IMG/VR virus record: IMGVR_UViG_3300028831_000617
Span: 1-59,632 of that record
DNA from: a virus
Strand: one strand, 5' to 3'
Length of the DNA: 59,632 nucleotides
This document shows positions 16,148 through 31,941 of this stretch, in pieces. The notes below the pieces were generated by a model, which had not been told where the DNA came from, did not search any database, and saw only the letters and a list, made by a program, of their open reading frames with translations. Every line of letters starts with the position of its first letter. The stretch's first letter is position 1. The position numbers and the translations under genes were made by a program.

Positions 16148-17158
16148 ATGGGCGCAACAACTGGAATTTCCTGGACCGACTCCACGCACAATTTTTGGAG
16201 GGGCTGCACCAAGGTCTCGCCAGGATGTGCCAGATGCTACGCTGAAACACTGGTCACGACCCGCCTCAAAGGCGAATGGGGCAAAGGCAAGCCGCGTGTG
16301 CGTAGCCAGAATTTTGACGCGCCGCTGGCGTGGAACAAGCGGCCTTGGGTGTGCGACCGATGTGGCGAGGCTGTCGTGCACAATCAGATGGGCTTGTGCT
16401 CGTGCGTCACCGCTTCTTCGGTTCACCGCCGCCGAGTCTTCTCGCTTTCCCTGGGCGATATTTTGGACCCGGAAGCGCCGATAGCTTACCTGGCCGACGC
16501 CCTGGATGTAATCCGACGCTGCCGTAACCTGGTATTTCAACTTCTCACCAAGCGCCCGAATCTATTTTTCGACCGACTGGTTGAGGCTGGCCGCTATCTG
16601 AACGGCACGGACACGAACCATGTGCGCAACGGAGAAACTGCCGATTTCGTCGAGGGTTGGATTCAGAACCAGCCGCCTGAGAACGTCTGGATTGGAACCT
16701 CGGTGGAAGACCAACAACGCGCCGACGAGCGCGTACCGGAGCTGCTGAAGATTCCGGCACGGGTGAGGTTTTTGTCGGTCGAGCCGATGCTTGGCCCGAT
16801 TGAGTTCTCCGATGTCAGCAAGCGTTCGGATGCGGTTAAGCAACCAGGAAAGCAGGCTCTTGATGGAATCGCGTGGACCATTATTGGTGGCGAGAGCGGC
16901 CCCGGCGCCCGTCCATGCAGCGTGGAATGGATTCGTTCCGTCGTGGAGCAGTGCAAAGCGGCGCAGGTAAGCTGTTTTGTTAAGCAGCTCGGTTCCATGC
17001 CGATGGCGGTCCCGCCTCCGCCGCCTGGAGGCCGCTACGTCCTTGAAAAACCCGGCCAACTCTGGAAAATGCTGCTGCGTGACAAAAAAGGCGGGGACAT
17101 CGCAGAGTTCCCGAGCGATCTGCGCGTGCGTGAATTTCCCGCCCTCCAACCCGCATGA
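16148..17158 (+). CDS. DUF5131 family protein (phage Gp37/Gp68)
   Basis: 336 residues. ISWTDSTHNFWRGCTKVSPG and GCARCYAE make the family's N-terminal Cys motif; NVWIGTSVEDQQRAD, RFLSVEPMLGPIEF, WTIIGGESGPGARP and CFVKQLGS are the other conserved blocks. The family is thought to be related to radical-SAM enzymes; its reaction is not established. An extra zinc-knuckle-like insert (CDRCGEAVVHNQMGLCSC) sits at about residues 69-86. It heads the rightward operon under operator site B. Confidence 0.88.
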   Translation: MGATTGISWTDSTHNFWRGCTKVSPGCARCYAETLVTTRLKGEWGKGKPRVRSQNFDAPLAWNKRPWVCDRCGEAVVHNQMGLCSCVTASSVHRRRVFSLSLGDILDPEAPIAYLADALDVIRRCRNLVFQLLTKRPNLFFDRLVEAGRYLNGTDTNHVRNGETADFVEGWIQNQPPENVWIGTSVEDQQRADERVPELLKIPARVRFLSVEPMLGPIEFSDVSKRSDAVKQPGKQALDGIAWTIIGGESGPGARPCSVEWIRSVVEQCKAAQVSCFVKQLGSMPMAVPPPPPGGRYVLEKPGQLWKMLLRDKKGGDIAEFPSDLRVREFPALQPA

Positions 17159-20360: not shown

Positions 20361-23300
20361 ATGGCTTTTCCGAGCATTGATTTCGAGCCGGATGCTCCTC
20401 TGGATGAATCTCCACAAGCTGAGCCGATAAACTTCGAGCCGGATCCAGAGCCGCCGCCTGAGCGTGAAATTTGGTCCGGGATGCGGCCACAGGCAGCCGC
20501 TCCCGTTGCTCCAACCCCACAGCCACAGCCACAGCCGCGAGAACTCAATCCCATCGAATCCTACCTGCGCGAGCCCGCGGACCCGAACGAGTCCGAGCTT
20601 CACAAGTGGGCCAAAGCGTATGGCGTAATTTTTAAGAACGCGCCGCGCCTCATTGGGTCTGCCATCGGACTTGCGGGCAAAGGTCTGGAAGCGACGGCGG
20701 GCAAGATCGCCGGGACGGGCGACACGCTGGAAGACGTGATCGGCGCGGTGACACGCGGCAAAGCGTTGCCGGTGGAGGAAGCTGCACAAACGGTGGAAGG
20801 CGTTCCTGGGTTCGGAGCGCGCGCTGGTCTTGGCGTCCTGGAAACAATCCCCAAGCTCGGCCTGCTGGCAGCGTTCCCGGAGTCGTTGCTGGCCCAAAGC
20901 ATTGCTGCGGGCGGAATCTTCGGACTGGACGCGCAAGGAAACTTTTCTCCCAAGGCTGCGGTGATCGGCGCTTTGCTGCCGGGTGCGGGCAAGATTGCGA
21001 CCGACGCGGTGCGCGGCGCGTTGACTCGCGGCGTCCTCGGTGGCGCAGAGTCGCTCGTCAAAAACAAAACCGCACAATGGTTCCTGGAAGAGACCGGACG
21101 GCAGGCGGCGTTGAACGCGGTCATGCTGGCGGGCGATTCACCGGAACTCATTGCTCTGTACAAGCAGGACCCCCAGGCGGCGAAGAAGCAGGTGCAGGAA
21201 ATCTTCGGGCAGAACCTGGCGTGGGCTTTGTTCGGCGCGGGCAGGCACTTTGCGCTCGGCGAAAACACGGCCACGTCCGCCTGGGTGGAAGGTCAAAAGC
21301 GCAAGTACAGTTCCTACTTTGACGCCGATAACTTTAACCTCGTGCGCCGTGGTCTGGGCAAGGCGGTGGATGAAGTTAAAGAAAAACAAGCGGAGCCGCC
21401 TCCTGCCGAAGAACCCCCGCGTGAGCCGTCCGAAACCGAACTCGAGTACGAAGGCGGCGAAGTGCCGCGTTACACGGGCTTGCCCGAGCGTGTGGGCGGG
21501 CGTCGAAGGTTGACGCTGCCCGGACCCGCCGCGCCCGTGCGGAGGATCAATTTCCCGATGACCGTAACGAAACCATTAACCCCAGGAGCACCTTATGCCA
21601 TTACGCAAGGGCAAGAGCCGCAGAATCGTGAGTTACAATATCAGGGAGCTACACAAAGGACCACAGTACCAGCGAACGCGCCGGAAGTTCGGAGCCAAGA
21701 AGGCGCAGGCCCAGGCGGTGGCAATCTCCTTGAAGGAAGCGGGGATGTCGCGCCGACGCAAGAAGCGGCGGCTGAGTTACCAGTAGCGCCGTCAAAGCCT
21801 GCTGCACGCGAGCAGGGAATAACCGACGAAGACGGCCTGCTCAAAACAATCGTGGACAACCAGAAGCTGCCCGCGTTCCTACCGGGAAAAGCCTGGGAGA
21901 CCAAGTACGCGAAGATCATGGCCAAGAAGCGCAGCAACGCGCCGTTAACAAGCGCCGAGAAAGACTTCCTGGCCAATGAAGTGCCGCAGAACTACGAGGA
22001 CTACTGGGGAGACGATTTCAAGCGGGCGTACGCTGCCGCCAAGGAGGCGGGAATCGAAGGTGAACTTTTCGAGCCAGTCAAGGCCACGAAAGGCGCGAAG
22101 ATAAACGACGCGGTGTGGAGCGCCATCCGGGTGACGGGACGGGACATGACGCCAAATGAACTTTGGGATCGCGTCGCCGGACTGGCTAATGCGAAAGCGG
22201 AGCGTTCCTCCAAGGCTGCGGCAGAGGAAAAACGCGCAGAGCAGGCGGCGGCGTGGGGAGAAGCCACCACAACCACGAAGCCGCGCAAGAAAGGCGTGCT
22301 CGTTGACCCAGCCCGGTTGGACAAGGGCGACTCGGTTGTCATTGAAGGCGAGCGCGTGCCGGTGCTGCGAAAGACAACGAAGGAAGTTGTCCTGGATGGC
22401 GGGGAGAAGTTCGGGGCGGTGACGCTACGCCTGCCCGGGGAAAAGTTTTACGCGCAAAAGTTTGAGGCGGGGCAGAAGGAACTTTTAGGCGGGGGACTTG
22501 GAGAGCTAAAACCAGCCTACGGCCTTGCGCCAGAAGATGTCGCGGCGACGGGCGGTGTGAAAGAGGCCATTGATGTTGCTGCTGAGCGGCTGTCCCAGGA
22601 AGCCAAGCGCGAACGAGCCTCGGACGTTTACGATTGGAACACCAGCAACAAACGATGGGGCCAGGTTTGGACTGAGGTAAAACAAGACCCAACAACCCGG
22701 CAGTGGCGGGTGATTTCGAGCTTGGAGGGAAATTTGAAGGGGTTGGACGTGGCCGAGTTCGGAAACGAGGAGGCGGCCCGCGCTTTTGCCAAGGACTTTC
22801 GCGAAGGAAAATCCTTTGCCCTCATCAATGGTGACCGCTGGCGAAAGCTGGTCGAGTCCGCCGACCAGACCAAAAGATTCACCACAAATGATAAGGAGCT
22901 TCTGCTTTCTCGTGGGCGAACCCAAGGCACGACGACCGAGGGTCAAACTGTAGGCGTTGAGAAACTAAAGCAGCAGTACGAACCACCTGCCGCAGACCGC
23001 TACCGCATCAAAAACGCCGGTCCTCAAACCTACGTTGTCACGGAGCGCCTCGAACAAACCAGCGCAGAGAAAGAACTCGGAGAACAACCCGTGCGTGTGC
23101 GCAACGAAGCCACGGGAGACATTCAGACCGTACTGGAAAGCGACCTTGAAGCGGTGCGCACCCGCACAGAGGAGGAGAAGGTTGCCGAAAAACGCCTGTC
23201 CAAAAAAGAACTGGACGACGAACTGCGCAAGTTCGGCGTGAGCGACCCTTCCATCTTTCCCAAGATGGCGGACAAGCGGGCAGCGCTTAAAAGGTATCAG

Positions 23301-26300
23301 GCATTGAAGGGGCAGAAGGGCGGGGAGTTGTTTTCGTTGCCCCAGGAAGATGTGCCCTGGGGATTCTGGATCGGGCCTACCGGAGAAATGCTGCCGGTCA
23401 AAATGATGATGCACGATTTGGAGGCAAAGAGGTTGCTCGTGACTCGCGGCCTTCCTTACGACGAGTACGGGGCAGTTGCTGGATTTCAACTGGAAAAGGC
23501 GGGCTACGTCAGGGCTGTGTTTGACAGAAAAAACCAGACACTCTTCGTGGATTCTCCCAATCCGCTGTCCAACACGGTTCGGCGCGCGATCAAGGACTAC
23601 GCTATTGAGCACAACATCAGCGCCGTGTTTGGAGCCGACACGTCCATTTCTGGAGGCGGTAAAAAGTTCGAGATTTACCGCGGCGAGCCGTACGACCGAT
23701 TTGCTTTAGGTGAAACCTCAAGCCGCACCATTGAATCGGCCACCAAAGAACTCACGGGTGCGCTCGGCCTAAAATCTCTCCCGCAGAATCTCTCCGTCGT
23801 TCACCAACCAGAAGCGCCCTGGGGCGCTCGTATCGTGGGCCGCAATCGCATTGAGATAAACGCGGCGCGCGTACGACAAGGCAACGTCATGCGCGTGGCC
23901 CTGGAAGAAGGTCTGCACGGCGTCTGGGGTGATTCGCGATTTGTCAAAGAGTGGAAGGATATTTCTGATTCGTTGACGGCTGCCGAGTTGGCTGCGGAGC
24001 GCGGTCGTCGGGAGAAGGCCGGTCTGCCTGCCGATGAGGAAACCATTCGGGAAGAAGCGGCGATCCGAAAGCTGCTGGAACAACCGGAGTCATCCTGGGC
24101 TAAGCGCGTGTGGACGGCCATCGTAAACGCCTTCAAGCGCGTCTTCGGAATCGAAATAAAGCCCACAGACAGGGAAGTGTTGCTGGGCGCGGCGAAAGAG
24201 TTTCTGCGCGGTCGCCGGGAAAGCCTTCCGGGTAAACGCTTGGTAGCGGACAACGCGGTCGTCATCGCTCCGGGAGTTTCGCCTGCGTATGCGATCACCG
24301 CCTTTCACGGGACGCCGCACAGCTTTGAGCGGTTTACCACGGCGAAGATTGGAACCGGCGAGGGAGCGCAGGTGTACGGGTGGGGGCTTTACTTTGCGGA
24401 GAACCGAGCCGTCGCATTCCAGTACCAGACTCGGCTGGGGAAACTTTCTGAGGTTCGCGTCGGCGGTCGCCTGATAGATTTCAACCAAGGCAACTCGGTC
24501 TCCTACGCCGCTGAAAAGCTGGCGCACCTTCACTGGGCAAAAACCACGCTGGGTGAGCCGATTTCCGAGGCGCAAATAATTGCGTCCGTGCGCGAGGACA
24601 TGACCGTCCGAAAACGGATCGCGGAGAAGAACAAAGACATTGAGGTGGCCAGAAGCCTGGACCGGCAGCTTGCTGCGCTGGCCAACATGGAGCGTGAGGG
24701 CATTGAGCTTCGTCCGTCTGCCAATCTTCTCAAGGTGGCCTTAAACGTGGAACCCGACGAACTGCTGGACTGGGACAAAAAGCTGAGCGAGCAGAGTGGG
24801 AAAATTCAAAAGCTTCTTGAAGGCGTTCTGTTGAACTACACCAAAAATTACACTGGCGCTCAACTTCACCACGACCTTATTTACGGACGCAATGCCCCAG
24901 ACGCGACCGCTGTTGCCGAATCTCTTGGACACGGGGATGCCAGCTTTCCAGAAAAAGCCTCAATCTACCTTTCCTCAAAAGGCATCAAAGGCATCCGGTA
25001 TGCGGATCAGGGAAGCCGCTACCAGGAGTACTTCGACCGCGCGGTCAACAAATGGGTGGCTGGTCCAAGCGGAGACATACGCGAGTTCAACACGGAAGCT
25101 GAGGCTAGAGCCTACGTTCAGAGCAGCCGCACCTACAACTACGTCATCTTCAATGAAAACGACATCACCATCACCCACCGAAACGGTCAAGCGGTGGCCT
25201 TGCCTGACGCTATGGCTGCGAAGCAACAGGAAGTCCGCTATTCGCTGCCGGAAGGAGATCGAGGCCAACCTGGCGAAGCTGGACCGGGAGAATCTGCTGC
25301 GGAGGAAGCGCCGGAGACCAAGGTGTCGCAAGTAGCCGGTGAGCGCATTGGTCCAGTCCGTCCCGTGGAAACGATTGCGCCAGTGGTGCAGGCGCTCAAG
25401 CTCCAAGTATTTGATGGAGACGCCGCTGAGGTGACGCCGGAGAACCTCGAAGTTGCACGCAACCTGATTTACGATTTCACCGATCCGAATACGAACCGTG
25501 CCGCCGTGGATTGGGTGCGCGGTTTAACGCAAGGCCCTGCCGGACAGGAAGGCGCGGACGTGGCGGCTCCCGCCCTGGCCTCCGAACTGTGGCGCTTTGC
25601 CATGCGCGTGGGTGCTCGGAACAAGGATTTCTCTCTGGCTCGGCTGATGATTGAACGTGACAAAGAGTTTGCGTTGATCGGAACGGCGGGGTCCATGTCC
25701 AGCGAACAAGTGGCAAGGGCGCTGCGGGGCAGGCGGTTGTTGTCCGACGAATTGATGTGGCGCAACCTAATCGCGTTGAACGACGCCCGTAACCGGGCAG
25801 TTGGCCGTCAAACCGGAGTCGGGGCCGAATTGATTGACCAGCTTGAGGCCACGCTCCGGGAGACGCAGCTTTCGCCGGATGATTTTGAGAAGGTGCTCCA
25901 AGGGCAAACGGTGCCTGGGGAGGGAGGCAAGCCGGGCAGGACGATTCAGCAGGTGATCGAGGAGCTGCAACCAGAAACGAAAGCTGCGGATGAACTCGTT
26001 ACTGGGTACAAGCCGGTGGAAACGCAAAGCCTGCTTGAAACCGTCGAACAATGGCGCGGTCGCCCGGTTGAACCGGCGGACGAGGCTGCGTTCATTGCTG
26101 GCCTGCGCGACGCTCTTGTTGCCCGCCGCCTTCCGCTTGAACTCGCCCAGGAAGTCGCGGAGGCAGCCTGGGTGCGCAAGGCTCGCAGCGAGAGTCGCGC
26201 AGAGACTCGCAAATGGGCCTCCACCCTCCAAAAATGGCAGCGGCAGTTGGACGAAGGCGCAAATGCGGAAGCAATCCTGGACCGCTGGTCCCGCCAACAA

Positions 26301-29300
26301 ACCGAATGGTTGCAACGCCCGCAGATCCCGAACAACGCGAAGGAAGCCGTGACGGAGTTCCTGCGCACGCGGGTCAACGCGGATACAGACGAAGCAGACT
26401 TTCGGGCACGGCTGGAACAACGTCTCCTCTCTGTGGGTGTGCCCGAGCCGATCGCCATTGAACTTGGGTATCAAACCTGGAACCGGAAGCTGCGGCTGGA
26501 TAGGAACCGCCTGGAGGCTGGCCTTGAGGAAGTGGCGCGCGATTATCTGCGCGAACGGGGCGAACTTCGCAGCCGGGCTGCCATGCCGGAAAGCGCGAAG
26601 CAACGATTTGCCCGGATCATCGCCAACGCCATGAAGCCGTTGTCGGCAGGGGAACGAGCCGAGTTACGTGGCCTTGTTGCGAGGCCCGATCCGCGCGCGC
26701 CGTTGACCGCGGAGCAACAAGCCCGGCTGGCAGAGCTTCGTTTCCGGGATGAACGCGACCAAGCCAGCTTCCAAACGACGCTGCAAGCACGACTCGAAGC
26801 CGCTGGCCTGCTTGCAGCCGCCGCAGAGCGAGTCTCCCGGCAGGCTTGGAACGATGTGCTCCTGAAATGGGCCGACGTTCAAGCCCGCGCGATTGACCGA
26901 GCCACCCAGTCCACTTCCACCAAGGGCTTGATCGAAGAAATCCTCTCCAACCCGTCCCGGGCGCAGAGCGACCCCGCGTGGCGCGCTCAGGCGATGCAGA
27001 ACTGGCTGGTCCGAAACGGGCTTTCGGTCGAGCAAGCCAAAGAAGCTGCGCGGATTTCTTCGGACGCCTTTGAAGCAGCAATGACGAAGGTAATCCAAGA
27101 CAAAGCGCGGCAGTTTTTGCAGGGACGAGCGCAGCCAAAGTCTATCGAAGACATTGTGAAGGCACTGCGCTTGGGACTGTACGACCCCAACCGCGCCTGG
27201 AGCGATGAGATCGCCGCGCGGCAAGGTTATCGCCCAGTGAGTCCTGACATGCTCTCCAAAGTTGCTGCGCTGGAAGAAAAGCTTTCTGACCCACGGCTTT
27301 CTTTGCCCGAGTACGTCGCCACGCTGGAAAAGATTCACGGGTTCTGGCGCGTCACCTCTGCGTTTGACGGCAGCTTGTCGAAGGCCATTGCCGAATGGCA
27401 CGCGGCCAACTTGCTCATTGGCCTGCGCACCCTCGGCCTCCACATCTTTCAACCGCCCATGTCAATCTTGATGCGAGATTTTCCGGTAGCGGCGTTGTTT
27501 CAACCGCTGGATGCGCCCATGCTGGCCAAGGTGCTACTGCGGCAGGCTACCAGATTTTATCCCAGGTTCCGGTACGCCTGGCAGAACGACGCCTACGTGA
27601 TTTCGCGGGGCAAGATGCGCCTGTGGCATGAGGAACTAAAACGACAATTTGAGCTTGGGCAGCAAGAAATTGCCCGCGGAGAAACGAAAGGCTGGCTGCG
27701 GATGACTTACTCGTGGGCGCATTACGTGACCCGGTTCCTCCAAGCCGCCACCGAAGCTGGTTCTTCGATCGTACGCGAATGGAAGGTGGCCGCTTACGCT
27801 TCCATGATCATGCGCGACGCCGGGTTGAAAACGCGGGAGATTTCTCAACTTGCGGACGTAATTTCGGAAGGCAAAAAAACCGCTTACGAAGCAAACCTGC
27901 TCCGCGGACTGGACGAAAACACGGCGGCCATCGCGGCGGATTACACCTACGACGACGCGGTGCGCCGGTTCATGCAGAACAAAGGTTTTGAAGACTCCAT
28001 GATCGAGAAGCTTTTTCAATCCTCGGACTTTGACACCAACTCCACAGTGGGGTACGTGGCGCCGGGCCTGGAAAAAACTGCCGGCGGCGAGATTGATACC
28101 ACGCAAGGGTGGGGCTGGGAAAAGATTCCCTACGGGATGATGCGCTACGTGTCCAAAATCCGGCAGCAGGGCGGCTGGCAGTCGGTCGGCGGCATCGTCA
28201 TGTTCGGGTTCTTTAACATCCCCACCAGGATCGCTTTGTACGGGTTGAACTACACGCCGTACGGCCTGCTCCGGGCAGGTGTTTACAACTACCGCATGGG
28301 CAACATTCCGTTCCTGCAACCCGGCAAGTACCGCGGGGTCAACCCCTGGCCGCAGATGTTCGCCAATGATGTGCAGGCAAAACAACGATTTCGGGAGGCC
28401 GTGGTGGGTAGTGCCCTGATGACCGCCGGGTTGGCCTGGGCGATGTATAACTCGTCTGCGGATGACGACGTTTCCAAGAAGAACTTCGGCGTGTACGTGA
28501 CCGGGGACGGGCCGCGCAGCAAGACGCTGCGGGATGCCTGGGAAAAGCTGGGCTTCAAACCCAAGGCCATCAACATCGTGATCGGCGGCCAGGTGAGAGG
28601 ATTTATTCCCATCACGCGCTCCGGGTCCGCCCTGGCGGCTCCAATGGCCATTCTAGCGTCCCATGACGACGTCATGTGGGTCCGCAAAGAGGCCGCCGCT
28701 TCCGGGCGGGCCGCGAAGGAGACAATCAACGCCGAAATCGTTCATGCCATCGGGGCCTACGCCGGCGTGGTCGGCGCGCAGGGAGCCTTACAAGGCGTTT
28801 CCCACTTTTTGAAGCTCACCGAAGGGGCCGGAAGCGCCGCCACAGCCACGGCGCGCGTCATTGCGGACCTGGGCAGCGGTCTTGCCTCAGCCATCCTTGT
28901 TCCTGGCAAGCAAATGTGGGACACCTTGGACAAGCTGATCTGGGGCAGCCCGGATCGTTCCTCGATTCAAAGCATTATCGCCTCCAACTTCCCGATTGTA
29001 GGCCACATACCATTCCTTTCCAGCGTGCTTGGCAAGTTTCACCCCGCTTTGAACCGCTTCGGCGACCCACTCCATGACCAAACGTGGTTCGGTCGTGCCA
29101 CCATGCTCAATTTGCCAGTGGCGTTCAAGGTTTCGGACACCCCGGAGAACCGCGCCCTGTATGAAATGCTCGTAAACAAGGGTGTTTCGGCCCCGGAACT
29201 GCGCCGGAGCGTGATCGAAGAGCGGTATGGGCCTCTCACGGAGGACCAATGGCAGAAATTCGTGCAAATTTCGGGTTCAACGTTGAAAAAAGCCGTCGTT

Positions 29301-29894
29301 TCCGACTTGGAGGGCTTGAAATCGCTCCCACCGGAGCAGTTAAAGTCATTTTTGACCAAGATTGGGACCCAAGCCAACCTGCAAGCTGCCGCAGAACTCG
29401 GTTTGGAGCGTGTTCCACAGCCTGGACGCGGCTTGGGAGGCGGCGGAGGGGCCGGAATCGCTACTTTCACGCCTCCGGGCGGTGGTGGGCGGGCAGAAAC
29501 GCCAAGATTAACGCTGCCGCGGGTGGAAAGCGGGCTTGGACCGGCTGCAGGAGGAGGCGGAGGAGGCGTGGGCCTTCCCAGGATCGCCGCCGGAGCCTTT
29601 GCGAGCGCGGCACCACGGCTCACGTTACCGATTGCTGCTCGCTCCGCTGGCCTGGGCGGGCGTTTGGCAGCCGGGACGGGTCAACCACGCCGGATTACGT
29701 CCTTGGGCGCTCCCAGGGGCGCGGGACGCAGAAGGCTGGCCTACGTGAGCGGTCGTTTGAGGTCGCGCGGCGGTCGCCTGCGGGCTTCTCTTGGTCGTGG
29801 TCGCGCGCGCGCAACCACGGCGCGAGCGCCAGGAGGGTATCGGGAACGCAGTCGGGCGGCGTACCATGCGCTGAGGCGGCGGTTTGCGGCATGA
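20361..29894 (+). CDS. Giant polyvalent ejection protein with ADP-ribosyltransferase domain, 3,177 aa
   Basis: The N-terminus is acidic with INFEPD-type repeats, then a hydrophobic Ala/Gly-rich region (about 95-300) that may cross membranes. About residues 1145-1200 resemble the zincin-type domain of polyvalent proteins, but the motif is degenerate (ALEEGLHGVW, not HExxH). Residues ~1310-1615 form an ART domain: FHGTPHSFERF, IGTGEGAQVYGWGLYFAEN and a closing YVIFNENDITI. The ~2360-2700 part (IPYGMMRYVSKIRQQGG, FNIPTRIALYGLNYTPYGL) matches C-terminal domains of phage large polyvalent proteins. The last ~150 residues are Gly- then Arg-rich and should bind nucleic acid. Such proteins are packaged and injected to modify host targets before phage genes are expressed. 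A 63-codon gene is nested at residues ~412-475. Confidence 0.85.
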   Translation: MAFPSIDFEPDAPLDESPQAEPINFEPDPEPPPEREIWSGMRPQAAAPVAPTPQPQPQPRELNPIESYLREPADPNESELHKWAKAYGVIFKNAPRLIGSAIGLAGKGLEATAGKIAGTGDTLEDVIGAVTRGKALPVEEAAQTVEGVPGFGARAGLGVLETIPKLGLLAAFPESLLAQSIAAGGIFGLDAQGNFSPKAAVIGALLPGAGKIATDAVRGALTRGVLGGAESLVKNKTAQWFLEETGRQAALNAVMLAGDSPELIALYKQDPQAAKKQVQEIFGQNLAWALFGAGRHFALGENTATSAWVEGQKRKYSSYFDADNFNLVRRGLGKAVDEVKEKQAEPPPAEEPPREPSETELEYEGGEVPRYTGLPERVGGRRRLTLPGPAAPVRRINFPMTVTKPLTPGAPYAITQGQEPQNRELQYQGATQRTTVPANAPEVRSQEGAGPGGGNLLEGSGDVAPTQEAAAELPVAPSKPAAREQGITDEDGLLKTIVDNQKLPAFLPGKAWETKYAKIMAKKRSNAPLTSAEKDFLANEVPQNYEDYWGDDFKRAYAAAKEAGIEGELFEPVKATKGAKINDAVWSAIRVTGRDMTPNELWDRVAGLANAKAERSSKAAAEEKRAEQAAAWGEATTTTKPRKKGVLVDPARLDKGDSVVIEGERVPVLRKTTKEVVLDGGEKFGAVTLRLPGEKFYAQKFEAGQKELLGGGLGELKPAYGLAPEDVAATGGVKEAIDVAAERLSQEAKRERASDVYDWNTSNKRWGQVWTEVKQDPTTRQWRVISSLEGNLKGLDVAEFGNEEAARAFAKDFREGKSFALINGDRWRKLVESADQTKRFTTNDKELLLSRGRTQGTTTEGQTVGVEKLKQQYEPPAADRYRIKNAGPQTYVVTERLEQTSAEKELGEQPVRVRNEATGDIQTVLESDLEAVRTRTEEEKVAEKRLSKKELDDELRKFGVSDPSIFPKMADKRAALKRYQALKGQKGGELFSLPQEDVPWGFWIGPTGEMLPVKMMMHDLEAKRLLVTRGLPYDEYGAVAGFQLEKAGYVRAVFDRKNQTLFVDSPNPLSNTVRRAIKDYAIEHNISAVFGADTSISGGGKKFEIYRGEPYDRFALGETSSRTIESATKELTGALGLKSLPQNLSVVHQPEAPWGARIVGRNRIEINAARVRQGNVMRVALEEGLHGVWGDSRFVKEWKDISDSLTAAELAAERGRREKAGLPADEETIREEAAIRKLLEQPESSWAKRVWTAIVNAFKRVFGIEIKPTDREVLLGAAKEFLRGRRESLPGKRLVADNAVVIAPGVSPAYAITAFHGTPHSFERFTTAKIGTGEGAQVYGWGLYFAENRAVAFQYQTRLGKLSEVRVGGRLIDFNQGNSVSYAAEKLAHLHWAKTTLGEPISEAQIIASVREDMTVRKRIAEKNKDIEVARSLDRQLAALANMEREGIELRPSANLLKVALNVEPDELLDWDKKLSEQSGKIQKLLEGVLLNYTKNYTGAQLHHDLIYGRNAPDATAVAESLGHGDASFPEKASIYLSSKGIKGIRYADQGSRYQEYFDRAVNKWVAGPSGDIREFNTEAEARAYVQSSRTYNYVIFNENDITITHRNGQAVALPDAMAAKQQEVRYSLPEGDRGQPGEAGPGESAAEEAPETKVSQVAGERIGPVRPVETIAPVVQALKLQVFDGDAAEVTPENLEVARNLIYDFTDPNTNRAAVDWVRGLTQGPAGQEGADVAAPALASELWRFAMRVGARNKDFSLARLMIERDKEFALIGTAGSMSSEQVARALRGRRLLSDELMWRNLIALNDARNRAVGRQTGVGAELIDQLEATLRETQLSPDDFEKVLQGQTVPGEGGKPGRTIQQVIEELQPETKAADELVTGYKPVETQSLLETVEQWRGRPVEPADEAAFIAGLRDALVARRLPLELAQEVAEAAWVRKARSESRAETRKWASTLQKWQRQLDEGANAEAILDRWSRQQTEWLQRPQIPNNAKEAVTEFLRTRVNADTDEADFRARLEQRLLSVGVPEPIAIELGYQTWNRKLRLDRNRLEAGLEEVARDYLRERGELRSRAAMPESAKQRFARIIANAMKPLSAGERAELRGLVARPDPRAPLTAEQQARLAELRFRDERDQASFQTTLQARLEAAGLLAAAAERVSRQAWNDVLLKWADVQARAIDRATQSTSTKGLIEEILSNPSRAQSDPAWRAQAMQNWLVRNGLSVEQAKEAARISSDAFEAAMTKVIQDKARQFLQGRAQPKSIEDIVKALRLGLYDPNRAWSDEIAARQGYRPVSPDMLSKVAALEEKLSDPRLSLPEYVATLEKIHGFWRVTSAFDGSLSKAIAEWHAANLLIGLRTLGLHIFQPPMSILMRDFPVAALFQPLDAPMLAKVLLRQATRFYPRFRYAWQNDAYVISRGKMRLWHEELKRQFELGQQEIARGETKGWLRMTYSWAHYVTRFLQAATEAGSSIVREWKVAAYASMIMRDAGLKTREISQLADVISEGKKTAYEANLLRGLDENTAAIAADYTYDDAVRRFMQNKGFEDSMIEKLFQSSDFDTNSTVGYVAPGLEKTAGGEIDTTQGWGWEKIPYGMMRYVSKIRQQGGWQSVGGIVMFGFFNIPTRIALYGLNYTPYGLLRAGVYNYRMGNIPFLQPGKYRGVNPWPQMFANDVQAKQRFREAVVGSALMTAGLAWAMYNSSADDDVSKKNFGVYVTGDGPRSKTLRDAWEKLGFKPKAINIVIGGQVRGFIPITRSGSALAAPMAILASHDDVMWVRKEAAASGRAAKETINAEIVHAIGAYAGVVGAQGALQGVSHFLKLTEGAGSAATATARVIADLGSGLASAILVPGKQMWDTLDKLIWGSPDRSSIQSIIASNFPIVGHIPFLSSVLGKFHPALNRFGDPLHDQTWFGRATMLNLPVAFKVSDTPENRALYEMLVNKGVSAPELRRSVIEERYGPLTEDQWQKFVQISGSTLKKAVVSDLEGLKSLPPEQLKSFLTKIGTQANLQAAAELGLERVPQPGRGLGGGGGAGIATFTPPGGGGRAETPRLTLPRVESGLGPAAGGGGGGVGLPRIAAGAFASAAPRLTLPIAARSAGLGGRLAAGTGQPRRITSLGAPRGAGRRRLAYVSGRLRSRGGRLRASLGRGRARATTARAPGGYRERSRAAYHALRRRFAA
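21595..21786 (+). CDS. Nested small basic phage protein, 63 aa, inside the giant gene
   Basis: Lies in the +1 frame within the polyvalent gene. It reads MPLRKGKSRRIVSYNIRELH, then KKAQAQAVAISLKEAG and a basic SRRRKKRR end. This is the pattern of a widespread small phage protein (KGKS...NIREL...QAVAIAL..AG.SRRK) normally found as a separate gene near structural genes. AGGAG lies 6 nt before the ATG, an excellent ribosome site. The overlapping giant-protein segment is a Gly/Pro/Gln-rich linker, which tolerates such overprinting. Function unknown; a nucleic-acid-associated virion role is likely. Confidence 0.75.
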   Translation: MPLRKGKSRRIVSYNIRELHKGPQYQRTRRKFGAKKAQAQAVAISLKEAGMSRRRKKRRLSYQ

Positions 29895-30580
29895 ACCCCC
29901 GGCTTGGTATTGTTTCTGGGGCCGGAGCGTCCGCCGGGGTTCGCATGGCGCAAATGCTCGTCGAGCAAGCCCAAGCGCAAGGTGCAACCAAGGACTGTGA
30001 CTTCCCTGAGTTCGCGCTCTACAACCTGCCGTTCCGGGGCATGGACCAGAACGGGATTGGAGACATCCTGGTCGCAAAGTCGGAGTTGTTGCAAGCCATC
30101 CGACAACTGGACTGGTTCCGGTGTTCGCACGTTTTGATTGCCTGCAACACGCTGCACGTGTTCCTGGAGGAAGTGCGGCCGCATACGGGGGCGACGCTGC
30201 TGAACATGGTGGCCCTGGCTGCCGGCGAAGCCGCCCGGCAAGGCGGTCCCGTGGGTGTGCTTTCTTCGCGGAGCACGAAGGAACACAAGCTGTACGAGAA
30301 AGCCCTGGCCGATTTGAACGTGGACGCGGTGGCAACGACCGAGGAGGAACAGGGGCGAGTTGACACGGTTATCGGCGCCGTCATGGCCGGCAAGGCCGGG
30401 CACCTTGAATCGGAGGCCGTGGAAAACATTCTGCACGACATGGTCCGGCGCGGGGCCAGGCGGGCGATCCTGGGCTGCACTGAGCTTGAGGCGGCGTTGT
30501 TTACCGGACCCACCGAGTTGCCGGTGATTGACGCGGGCGAGGTGGCGGTCAAGGCGGCGCTGGAGGCGCTTAGGGGATGA
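29891..30580 (+). CDS. Aspartate/glutamate racemase family enzyme
   Basis: 229 residues, the usual size. LGIVSGAGASAGVRMAQMLV is the N-terminal loop; the two catalytic cysteines are in HVLIACNTLHVF (about residue 84) and AILGCTELEAALF (about 196), as in MurI and aspartate racemase. It should interconvert L- and D-Asp or Glu without cofactor. It is ATGA-coupled to the polyvalent gene and to the ATP-grasp gene, so its D-amino acid may be the ligase substrate. Confidence 0.85.
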   Translation: MNPRLGIVSGAGASAGVRMAQMLVEQAQAQGATKDCDFPEFALYNLPFRGMDQNGIGDILVAKSELLQAIRQLDWFRCSHVLIACNTLHVFLEEVRPHTGATLLNMVALAAGEAARQGGPVGVLSSRSTKEHKLYEKALADLNVDAVATTEEEQGRVDTVIGAVMAGKAGHLESEAVENILHDMVRRGARRAILGCTELEAALFTGPTELPVIDAGEVAVKAALEALRG

Positions 30581-31941
30581 ACTACTGCTTCATTACCAAA
30601 GAAGGCGACCCGCTACCAATCTGTGACCGGCTGCGAGACGAGGGTAAGCGGGTTTTGGTGGGAATGGTTCAGGGCGAAGCCTCCAGGGACGATTCGGCGG
30701 ACCGGGAGAAAACACGGCTTTCCCTTTACGACGGCATACTGGAAAAGAAGCCAGCCGAGGAGGTCATTGTCTTCCTGGGCAAGATGCCAGCCGCTGAGCG
30801 CGACAACTGGTGGGTCGGGTTTGACTATGGCGATTTGTGGGAACTTTCGGAGCGCGTGTTGGGCATGGGTTTTCGCAAGGGAATCTTTCCCACCGAGGCG
30901 GGCTACAAGTTGGAGGAGGACCGGACGGCGGGCAAGAGCTTCGCCAAAAAGCACTACCCGGATCTGAAGGTGGCCCCGGCGTCTGAATTTTCCAAGGTGG
31001 AGGACGCCATCAAGTTCCTGGAACAAAACAAGGACAAGATTTACGTCCTCAAGAGCGAAGGCAGCAACGCGGAGACGGTCGTGCCCGCCACCCAGGACGC
31101 GGAGCTTGCGCGGCGGCAGATCATCGGGGCCTTGCAGGCGGAAACTGCGGACTACGAAAAAGGGTTTACGTTGGAGGAGAAGATTCGCAACCCGATTGAG
31201 CTTTCGCCGGTCCTCCTTTTCATGGACGGCAAACCGCTGTTCAGCCTCGTCGAACTGGAGAACAAGCCGCTGGGCGCGGGCAACATCGGGCGGCTCACGG
31301 GCGGCTGCCAGAACCTTACCATCGCGACACGCATGGACTGCGAGCTTAACAAAATCGCGTTCCCGCCCATCGTGTACGAGTTGGCCGAGAAGCAGCCCGG
31401 CATTTCGATCTTCGACGCAGGACTGCTGTTTGACGGCAACGATTTTTGGTTCACCGAATTTGCGAAAGATCGTTGGGGCTGGGACGGCATCTTTTCCGAG
31501 ATCGCCATGTCTGGCGACGTCCACCACCGCATGGCTGCTTCGCGGCATTTCGATTTGATCGCCCGCGGACAAAATCCGTTGCAATGGAACTTCGGTGCCG
31601 CTGTTCGGCTTTTCCAGACACAACCGGATTCAAAGCGCGTGGACGTTTTTGAAGACGAGTATGCTGTGGATTGGCTGGACGAGGCTTCCGACGGCCTGTG
31701 GTTCTACTGCATCAAGAAGCAGAAAGGACAGTTCGTGAGCGTGGGCTACCGGAAGGACCTGGGCGTGGCGACTGGCGCGGGCAACACGATGGAGGAAGCT
31801 GTGAACCGGGCTTACAAGGCGGCAGAGTCGGTGGCGATGACAGGTTTGTACTTCCGGCCCAAGTTCGACATGCTCTCAAGGGACTACTTTGATTCGATCT
31901 TGAACCGCTACGACTGGCTGATGCAGTCTGGACTTTTATGA
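30577..31941 (+). CDS. ATP-grasp ligase, PurD-like, 454 aa
   Basis: The ATP-grasp pattern is visible: KIYVLKSEGSNAETVVP (ATP-binding Lys), ELSPVLLFMDGKPLFSLVEL, GAGNIGRLTGG, and the metal-binding FWFTEFAKDRWGWDG. The C-terminal ATGAGNTMEEAVNRAYKAAE resembles the PurD closing segment. ATP-grasp enzymes join a carboxylate to an amine through an acyl-phosphate. Coupling to a racemase suggests amidation with a D-amino acid; the acceptor (peptidoglycan, peptide, nucleotide or protein) is unknown. Confidence 0.8.
   Translation: MNYCFITKEGDPLPICDRLRDEGKRVLVGMVQGEASRDDSADREKTRLSLYDGILEKKPAEEVIVFLGKMPAAERDNWWVGFDYGDLWELSERVLGMGFRKGIFPTEAGYKLEEDRTAGKSFAKKHYPDLKVAPASEFSKVEDAIKFLEQNKDKIYVLKSEGSNAETVVPATQDAELARRQIIGALQAETADYEKGFTLEEKIRNPIELSPVLLFMDGKPLFSLVELENKPLGAGNIGRLTGGCQNLTIATRMDCELNKIAFPPIVYELAEKQPGISIFDAGLLFDGNDFWFTEFAKDRWGWDGIFSEIAMSGDVHHRMAASRHFDLIARGQNPLQWNFGAAVRLFQTQPDSKRVDVFEDEYAVDWLDEASDGLWFYCIKKQKGQFVSVGYRKDLGVATGAGNTMEEAVNRAYKAAESVAMTGLYFRPKFDMLSRDYFDSILNRYDWLMQSGLL

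Follow-up and report, generated by a model that had tools for sequence, protein, structure and literature searches.

A phrog_2423-like gene nested within a giant polyvalent-like gene of a phage

The DNA analysed here (IMG/VR record IMGVR_UViG_3300028831_000617, positions 1 to 59,632, referred to below as the window) contains a small open reading frame at 21595–21786 that is fully enclosed in the +1 frame of a 3,177-codon open reading frame at 20361–29894. Comparison with other phage sequences confirms that it is a genuine member of the small basic phage family phrog_2423. We consider it probable that it is a separately initiated gene, embedded by recombination in the linker of a polyvalent gene, and that both frames are translated.

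The nested gene and its family

The features discussed are as follows.

21595–21786, + strand: nested small gene, phrog_2423-like, 63 aa (from translation, PHROG match and relatives)
21584–21588, + strand: Shine-Dalgarno motif AGGAG, 6 nt before the nested ATG (from sequence)
20361–29894, + strand: host gene, giant polyvalent-like protein, 3,177 aa (from translation)
21480–21800, + strand: segment without the giant-frame codon signature, borders approximate (from the codon log-likelihood profile and GC by codon position)

The nested frame begins at the second position of a giant-frame codon, which places it in the +1 frame. A preliminary description, made from the DNA letters alone, had reported a 63-codon gene with a strong AGGAG site in the +1 frame of the 3,177-codon gene, and the coordinates, the phase and the enclosure are all correct. 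It had also called the host peptide at this point a low-complexity linker, and indeed the giant frame across the nest (residues 412–475) reads YAITQGQEPQNRELQYQGATQ... and is hydrophilic and of low complexity. The giant gene has 39 other ATGs in its +1 frame. Just 3 of them follow a Shine-Dalgarno motif, and the ORFs that these 3 open reach 35 codons at most.

Codon statistics trained on the long genes of the window give the giant frame the advantage on both sides of the nest, as far as about 21480 and again from about 21800; from about 21660 to 21760 the small frame leads. The giant-minus-small codon score at the nest, −0.07, is lower than in any of the other 189-nt segments of the giant gene (mean 0.70, sd 0.23, minimum 0.15). 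In line with this, GC content by codon position at the nest is 0.54/0.48/0.76 in the small frame and 0.75/0.53/0.47 in the giant frame. The acquired stretch may include some 100 bp upstream of the small gene. Synonymous reshuffling leaves the giant frame open through the nest in about 14% of cases, and an open giant frame is by itself unremarkable in this genome. No second copy of the small gene was found elsewhere in the 59.6-kb record, nor were there convincing repeats that would mark a duplicated segment as its source.

The preliminary description had taken the product for a known kind of stand-alone phage protein, and this is borne out by the match to phrog_2423 (E 8.7e-7, over residues 1–19) and by relatives up to 60% identical over the full length. 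Beyond residue 19 the window protein departs from the phrog_2423 profile by a central insert, but this remaining part aligns with the relatives L001, L002 and L067. Scans of IMG/VR located more than 200 loci with relatives. The core MPL..G.S......N is invariant in the family, which has a short form and forms with differing central inserts; the window copy is of the longer KFGAKKAQ form, and shares the basic C-terminus common to the family. In an alignment of 28 sequences the invariant residues are M1, P2, L3, G6, S8, N15 and A43, all of which are present in the window copy. In many contigs (several loci within L161–L216) a fusion joins the small domain to a conserved tail carrying HVGPIHSPVAGRTDHLPMHV and YVIPADIISAMGEGNT motifs.

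The small protein matches no Pfam or NCBIfam family, including HNH and other nuclease families. AlphaFold2 generates a confident model with three helices (mean pLDDT 89), and searches of PDB and BFVD with this model returned no function and no PDB fold match.

The small gene lies directly behind a portal gene in several contigs (L093, L120, L059 and L092), and in phage DSL-LC04 it overlaps the end of the portal gene, ahead of the capsid gene. It is immediately upstream of the small terminase in Thalassomonas phage BA3 and Vibrio phage FGH, and downstream of the head genes in PB1. In the Obolenskvirus P919 (L243, 3001–4338) the small domain forms the in-frame N-terminus of a 445-aa head maturation protease. 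In one further locus (L069, 4074–9125) a 1,683-aa protein begins in frame with the domain and has an ART region in common with the giant protein of the window. The window copy itself is outside any head or packaging module, with no adjoining portal, terminase or capsid gene. A head or packaging location is a common context of the phrog_2423 family and not its defining feature. Given the portal, terminase and capsid neighbours and the fusion to the Obolenskvirus head maturation protease, a role in head assembly or in prohead entry is the simplest one suggested for these small proteins.

The giant gene and its surroundings

Polyvalent proteins are recognised by the presence of several effector or enzyme domains. 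In the 3,177 residues of the giant protein there is a single Pfam match, to ART-PolyVal (residues 1314–1361, E 4.7e-4), which is weak and below the curated cut-off. The ART region matches other phage proteins and is the only region with matches among GenBank phages; one of these is gene 5 of phiGT1, beside which the small gene is not found. No relatives of the giant gene were found by megablast, by tblastn with the first 1,000 residues, by a scan of viral contigs, or in 24 contigs bearing the small gene, and a search for sister phages with two neighbouring genes as bait found no relatives. Selection was therefore estimated from comparable nests elsewhere.

The C-terminal part of the giant protein (window 29361–29894) is Gly/Arg-rich and strongly basic, and has lost the codon signature. 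A 443-codon ORF 3' of the giant gene apparently overlaps it by 646 bases (29249–29894). This second overlap was rejected: the racemase domain of that ORF begins only at about 29927 and there is an in-frame ATG at 29891, overlapping the stop codon of the giant gene (ATGA), so that the long overlap probably reflects no more than an open frame. The region 29891–31941 holds this Asp/Glu racemase-like gene (Pfam E 1.7e-25) followed directly by a gene with weak ATP-grasp (GARS) matches, an unusual pair of enzymes to find beside a giant phage gene. A DUF5131 (phrog_2045) gene at 16148–17158 lies between a DnaB-like helicase and the giant-gene cluster.

Recurrence of the nest and selection on the two frames

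A total of 224 loci were screened for long ORFs running across the small gene, and the peptides were then read. In six contig groups the small gene is nested inside a long and convincing coding frame.

L065: host frame of 3,399 codons, on a contig in a Geobacter MAG
L071: host frame of 850 codons
L082: host frame of 796 codons, running off the contig
L083: host frame of 2,600 codons, with an LPD38 domain
L114: host frame of 1,431 codons
L122: host frame of 3,182 codons, nest near residue 1863

In addition, Tunturiibacter phage Tunturi_3 (L252, 3001–3165) carries an unannotated copy of the small gene, again in +1, inside a CDS annotated with a length of 222 aa. Five further candidates (L002, L107, L136, L148 and L199) were rejected, as the other frame is not a convincing gene across the overlap. 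In a phylum-wide genome search 3 of 395 genomes matched, one of them L065's own, and there was no new nest. No additional copy of the small gene was found in the other nested records. A search of the open-access journal literature found no report of the phrog_2423 family nested in polyvalent genes.

Counting the window, there are eight contexts, and in each of them the phase of the nest is +1. Among 175 unique relatives the two possible host frames are open with similar frequency (24 against 18, the nested ones being within the 24). Read in the +1-host phase, the sequence gives a nearly neutral peptide with a high content of G, Q, E, N, S, T, D and P, whereas the other phase gives a strongly basic peptide; this difference is a plausible reason for the +1 bias. 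Of the nested starts, 6 of 7 (all but that of L122) follow a Shine-Dalgarno motif, compared to 48 of 409 other +1 ATGs (P 1.6e-5).

The chance of an open host frame was estimated by drawing synonymous codons at random according to the usage of each host gene. The frame stayed open in 0 of 4,000 draws for both L071 and L082, 0.15% for L114, 0.3% for L083, 2% for L122 and 11% for L065, against the 14% for the window. By BLAST, the nested giants have no clear similarity to each other beyond the overlap, except for L065 and L114 just upstream of the nest. Since the host genes lack such similarity, their sequences point to at least five or six independent nesting events in largely unrelated host genes, although the nests may instead share a very old common descent followed by fast divergence.

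Selection could be followed in the relatives of L083, for which a viral-contig scan with its giant region gave 16 loci. Besides L083's own contig, 12 loci cover the nest; all 12 keep the small gene in the same place and phase with GGAG upstream, and both frames are open in all 12. Estimated by simple spanning-tree counts on related sequences rather than a full codon model, omega across the overlap is 0.39 for the small frame and 0.94 for the giant frame, and outside the overlap the giant frame has values of 0.42 upstream and 0.39 downstream. A separate count of the same kind, with L082 included and comprising 111 changes, gave 0.42 for the small frame and 1.28 for the giant frame, with no giant-frame stops in the overlap where 4.9 were expected. 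In this clade purifying selection acts on the small frame; the giant frame evolves nearly neutrally in the overlap and is constrained outside it. The omegas, together with the absence of stops, mark the small protein as the constrained one, and the giant frame as kept open but free to vary.

Origin of the nest and comparison with known systems

On the basis of the sequence, we infer that both frames are translated in the window phage, and that its nest arose by insertion. The starting point would be a phrog_2423 gene, normally found among head and packaging genes. Recombination would have placed the whole gene, ribosome site included, in a polyvalent linker and in the +1 phase, in which the polyvalent reading of the gene meets no stops. 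Ribosomes in the polyvalent frame would read the small gene as a hydrophilic and probably unstructured linker, while others, starting on the same mRNA at the internal AGGAG-ATG, would produce the 63-aa protein. The small protein would then help to assemble the head or to carry proteins into the prohead.

An alternative is capture by fusion, in which the small gene lay between two genes and the upstream one lost its stop, giving one giant frame through the small gene. This we regard as possible but unlikely. It would fit with the small gene often being tightly packed behind a long gene such as the portal gene, with the small gene of L001, which adjoins a giant gene, and with L069, in which the small domain is joined in frame to the front of a giant, and with the position of five nests after an N-terminal part of 400–740 residues. 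However, the nest in L122 is far inside its giant, and there is a relevant comparison in L226. Its giant protein, encoded by one ORF, matches that of L065 over residues 6–494, where the nest is reached, and once more close to the C-terminus; no small gene was found in the record. A single ORF with the same N-terminal part and without the small gene favours insertion or domain exchange over fusion. The region after the nest has been exchanged between L226 and L065, so L226 does not provide a clean empty site, but the pattern of presence and absence is as expected for insertion or loss.

The open giant frame could also mean that the small ORF entered the giant gene and persists there, untranslated, as mere linker DNA. 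This seems improbable, because the start is intact, with a Shine-Dalgarno motif, the gene is of full length with all the invariant family residues, the record has no other copy of it, and in the analogous L083 clade selection on the small frame is purifying. We give very little weight to the possibility that an ordinary small gene lies between two separate genes and that no continuous giant protein is made. Openness by chance is not rare in the window, and such a chance overlap exists at the other end of the giant gene (29249–29890); but the coding signature has one and the same phase on both sides of the nest, and in the other nests openness is improbable by chance and is kept in the 12 further loci of one clade.

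The preliminary description had left the choice between a gene inserted and one overprinted. The acquisition of an existing gene is upheld, and de novo origin of the small frame within the giant gene can be set aside as practically excluded, since many unrelated phages carry free-standing homologues of the small frame. Internal same-strand +1 overlap is a common geometry of overprinted viral genes (PMC8227390), and the hydrophilic peptide in one frame is a further likeness. The ages, however, are reversed: here the nested frame is old and the host segment is the new peptide, and it is the small frame and not the giant frame that carries the coding signature and the constraint. Overprinted genes are recognised by a nested frame without homologues outside the overlap, whereas the window ORF has many that stand free.

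Returning to embedding by recombination, we tentatively propose, as one possibility among several, that phrog_2423-type head genes have been embedded repeatedly, always in +1, in unrelated polyvalent linkers, since what is read from them in the host frame is a hydrophilic linker that does no harm, and that the nest is then kept by selection. If so, it might be kept, for example, to make a head factor from the same mRNA as an injected cargo protein. Nested viral genes are usually attributed to overprinting, with the inner frame as the new one; here the inner frame is old and the outer segment new. A single gene family nested several times offers a testable route to overlapping genes and long linkers in phages, and connects a common unnamed protein family with giant proteins that are probably injected, as well as with head assembly. 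Gene annotation can miss nested copies, as in Tunturi_3.

Compared with stand-alone members of phrog_2423, the window copy has the same MPL..G.S core, size and basic C-terminus, and differs in being of the longer KFGAKKAQ form and in lying within a giant gene rather than in a head module. The host gene resembles the polyvalent proteins of phages, many of which are predicted to be packaged in the virion and injected (Iyer et al. 2017, PMC5512222), in encoding a very long phage protein, putatively of the multidomain type; that work describes no nested genes and does not mention overlapping ones.

As a precedent, the ShiLan element comes closest. In it an HNH homing endonuclease gene sits out of frame within a phage DNA methylase gene, the host frame stays open, the insert is predicted to be a loop or disordered segment, and more than one host gene is occupied (PMC11855218). 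In both cases a complete pre-existing gene lies on the same strand, out of frame, within an open host frame. The cargo is different: the ShiLan gene encodes a self-spreading homing endonuclease, and that of the window a protein of a head-module family, predicted to have three helices and without nuclease features. The phrog_2423 nests differ further in having a Shine-Dalgarno motif at most sites, in being stable in all the covered loci of one clade, and in recurring in many hosts without sign of homing. In the present case the embedded gene is a conserved head-module gene, which recurs in largely unrelated hosts.
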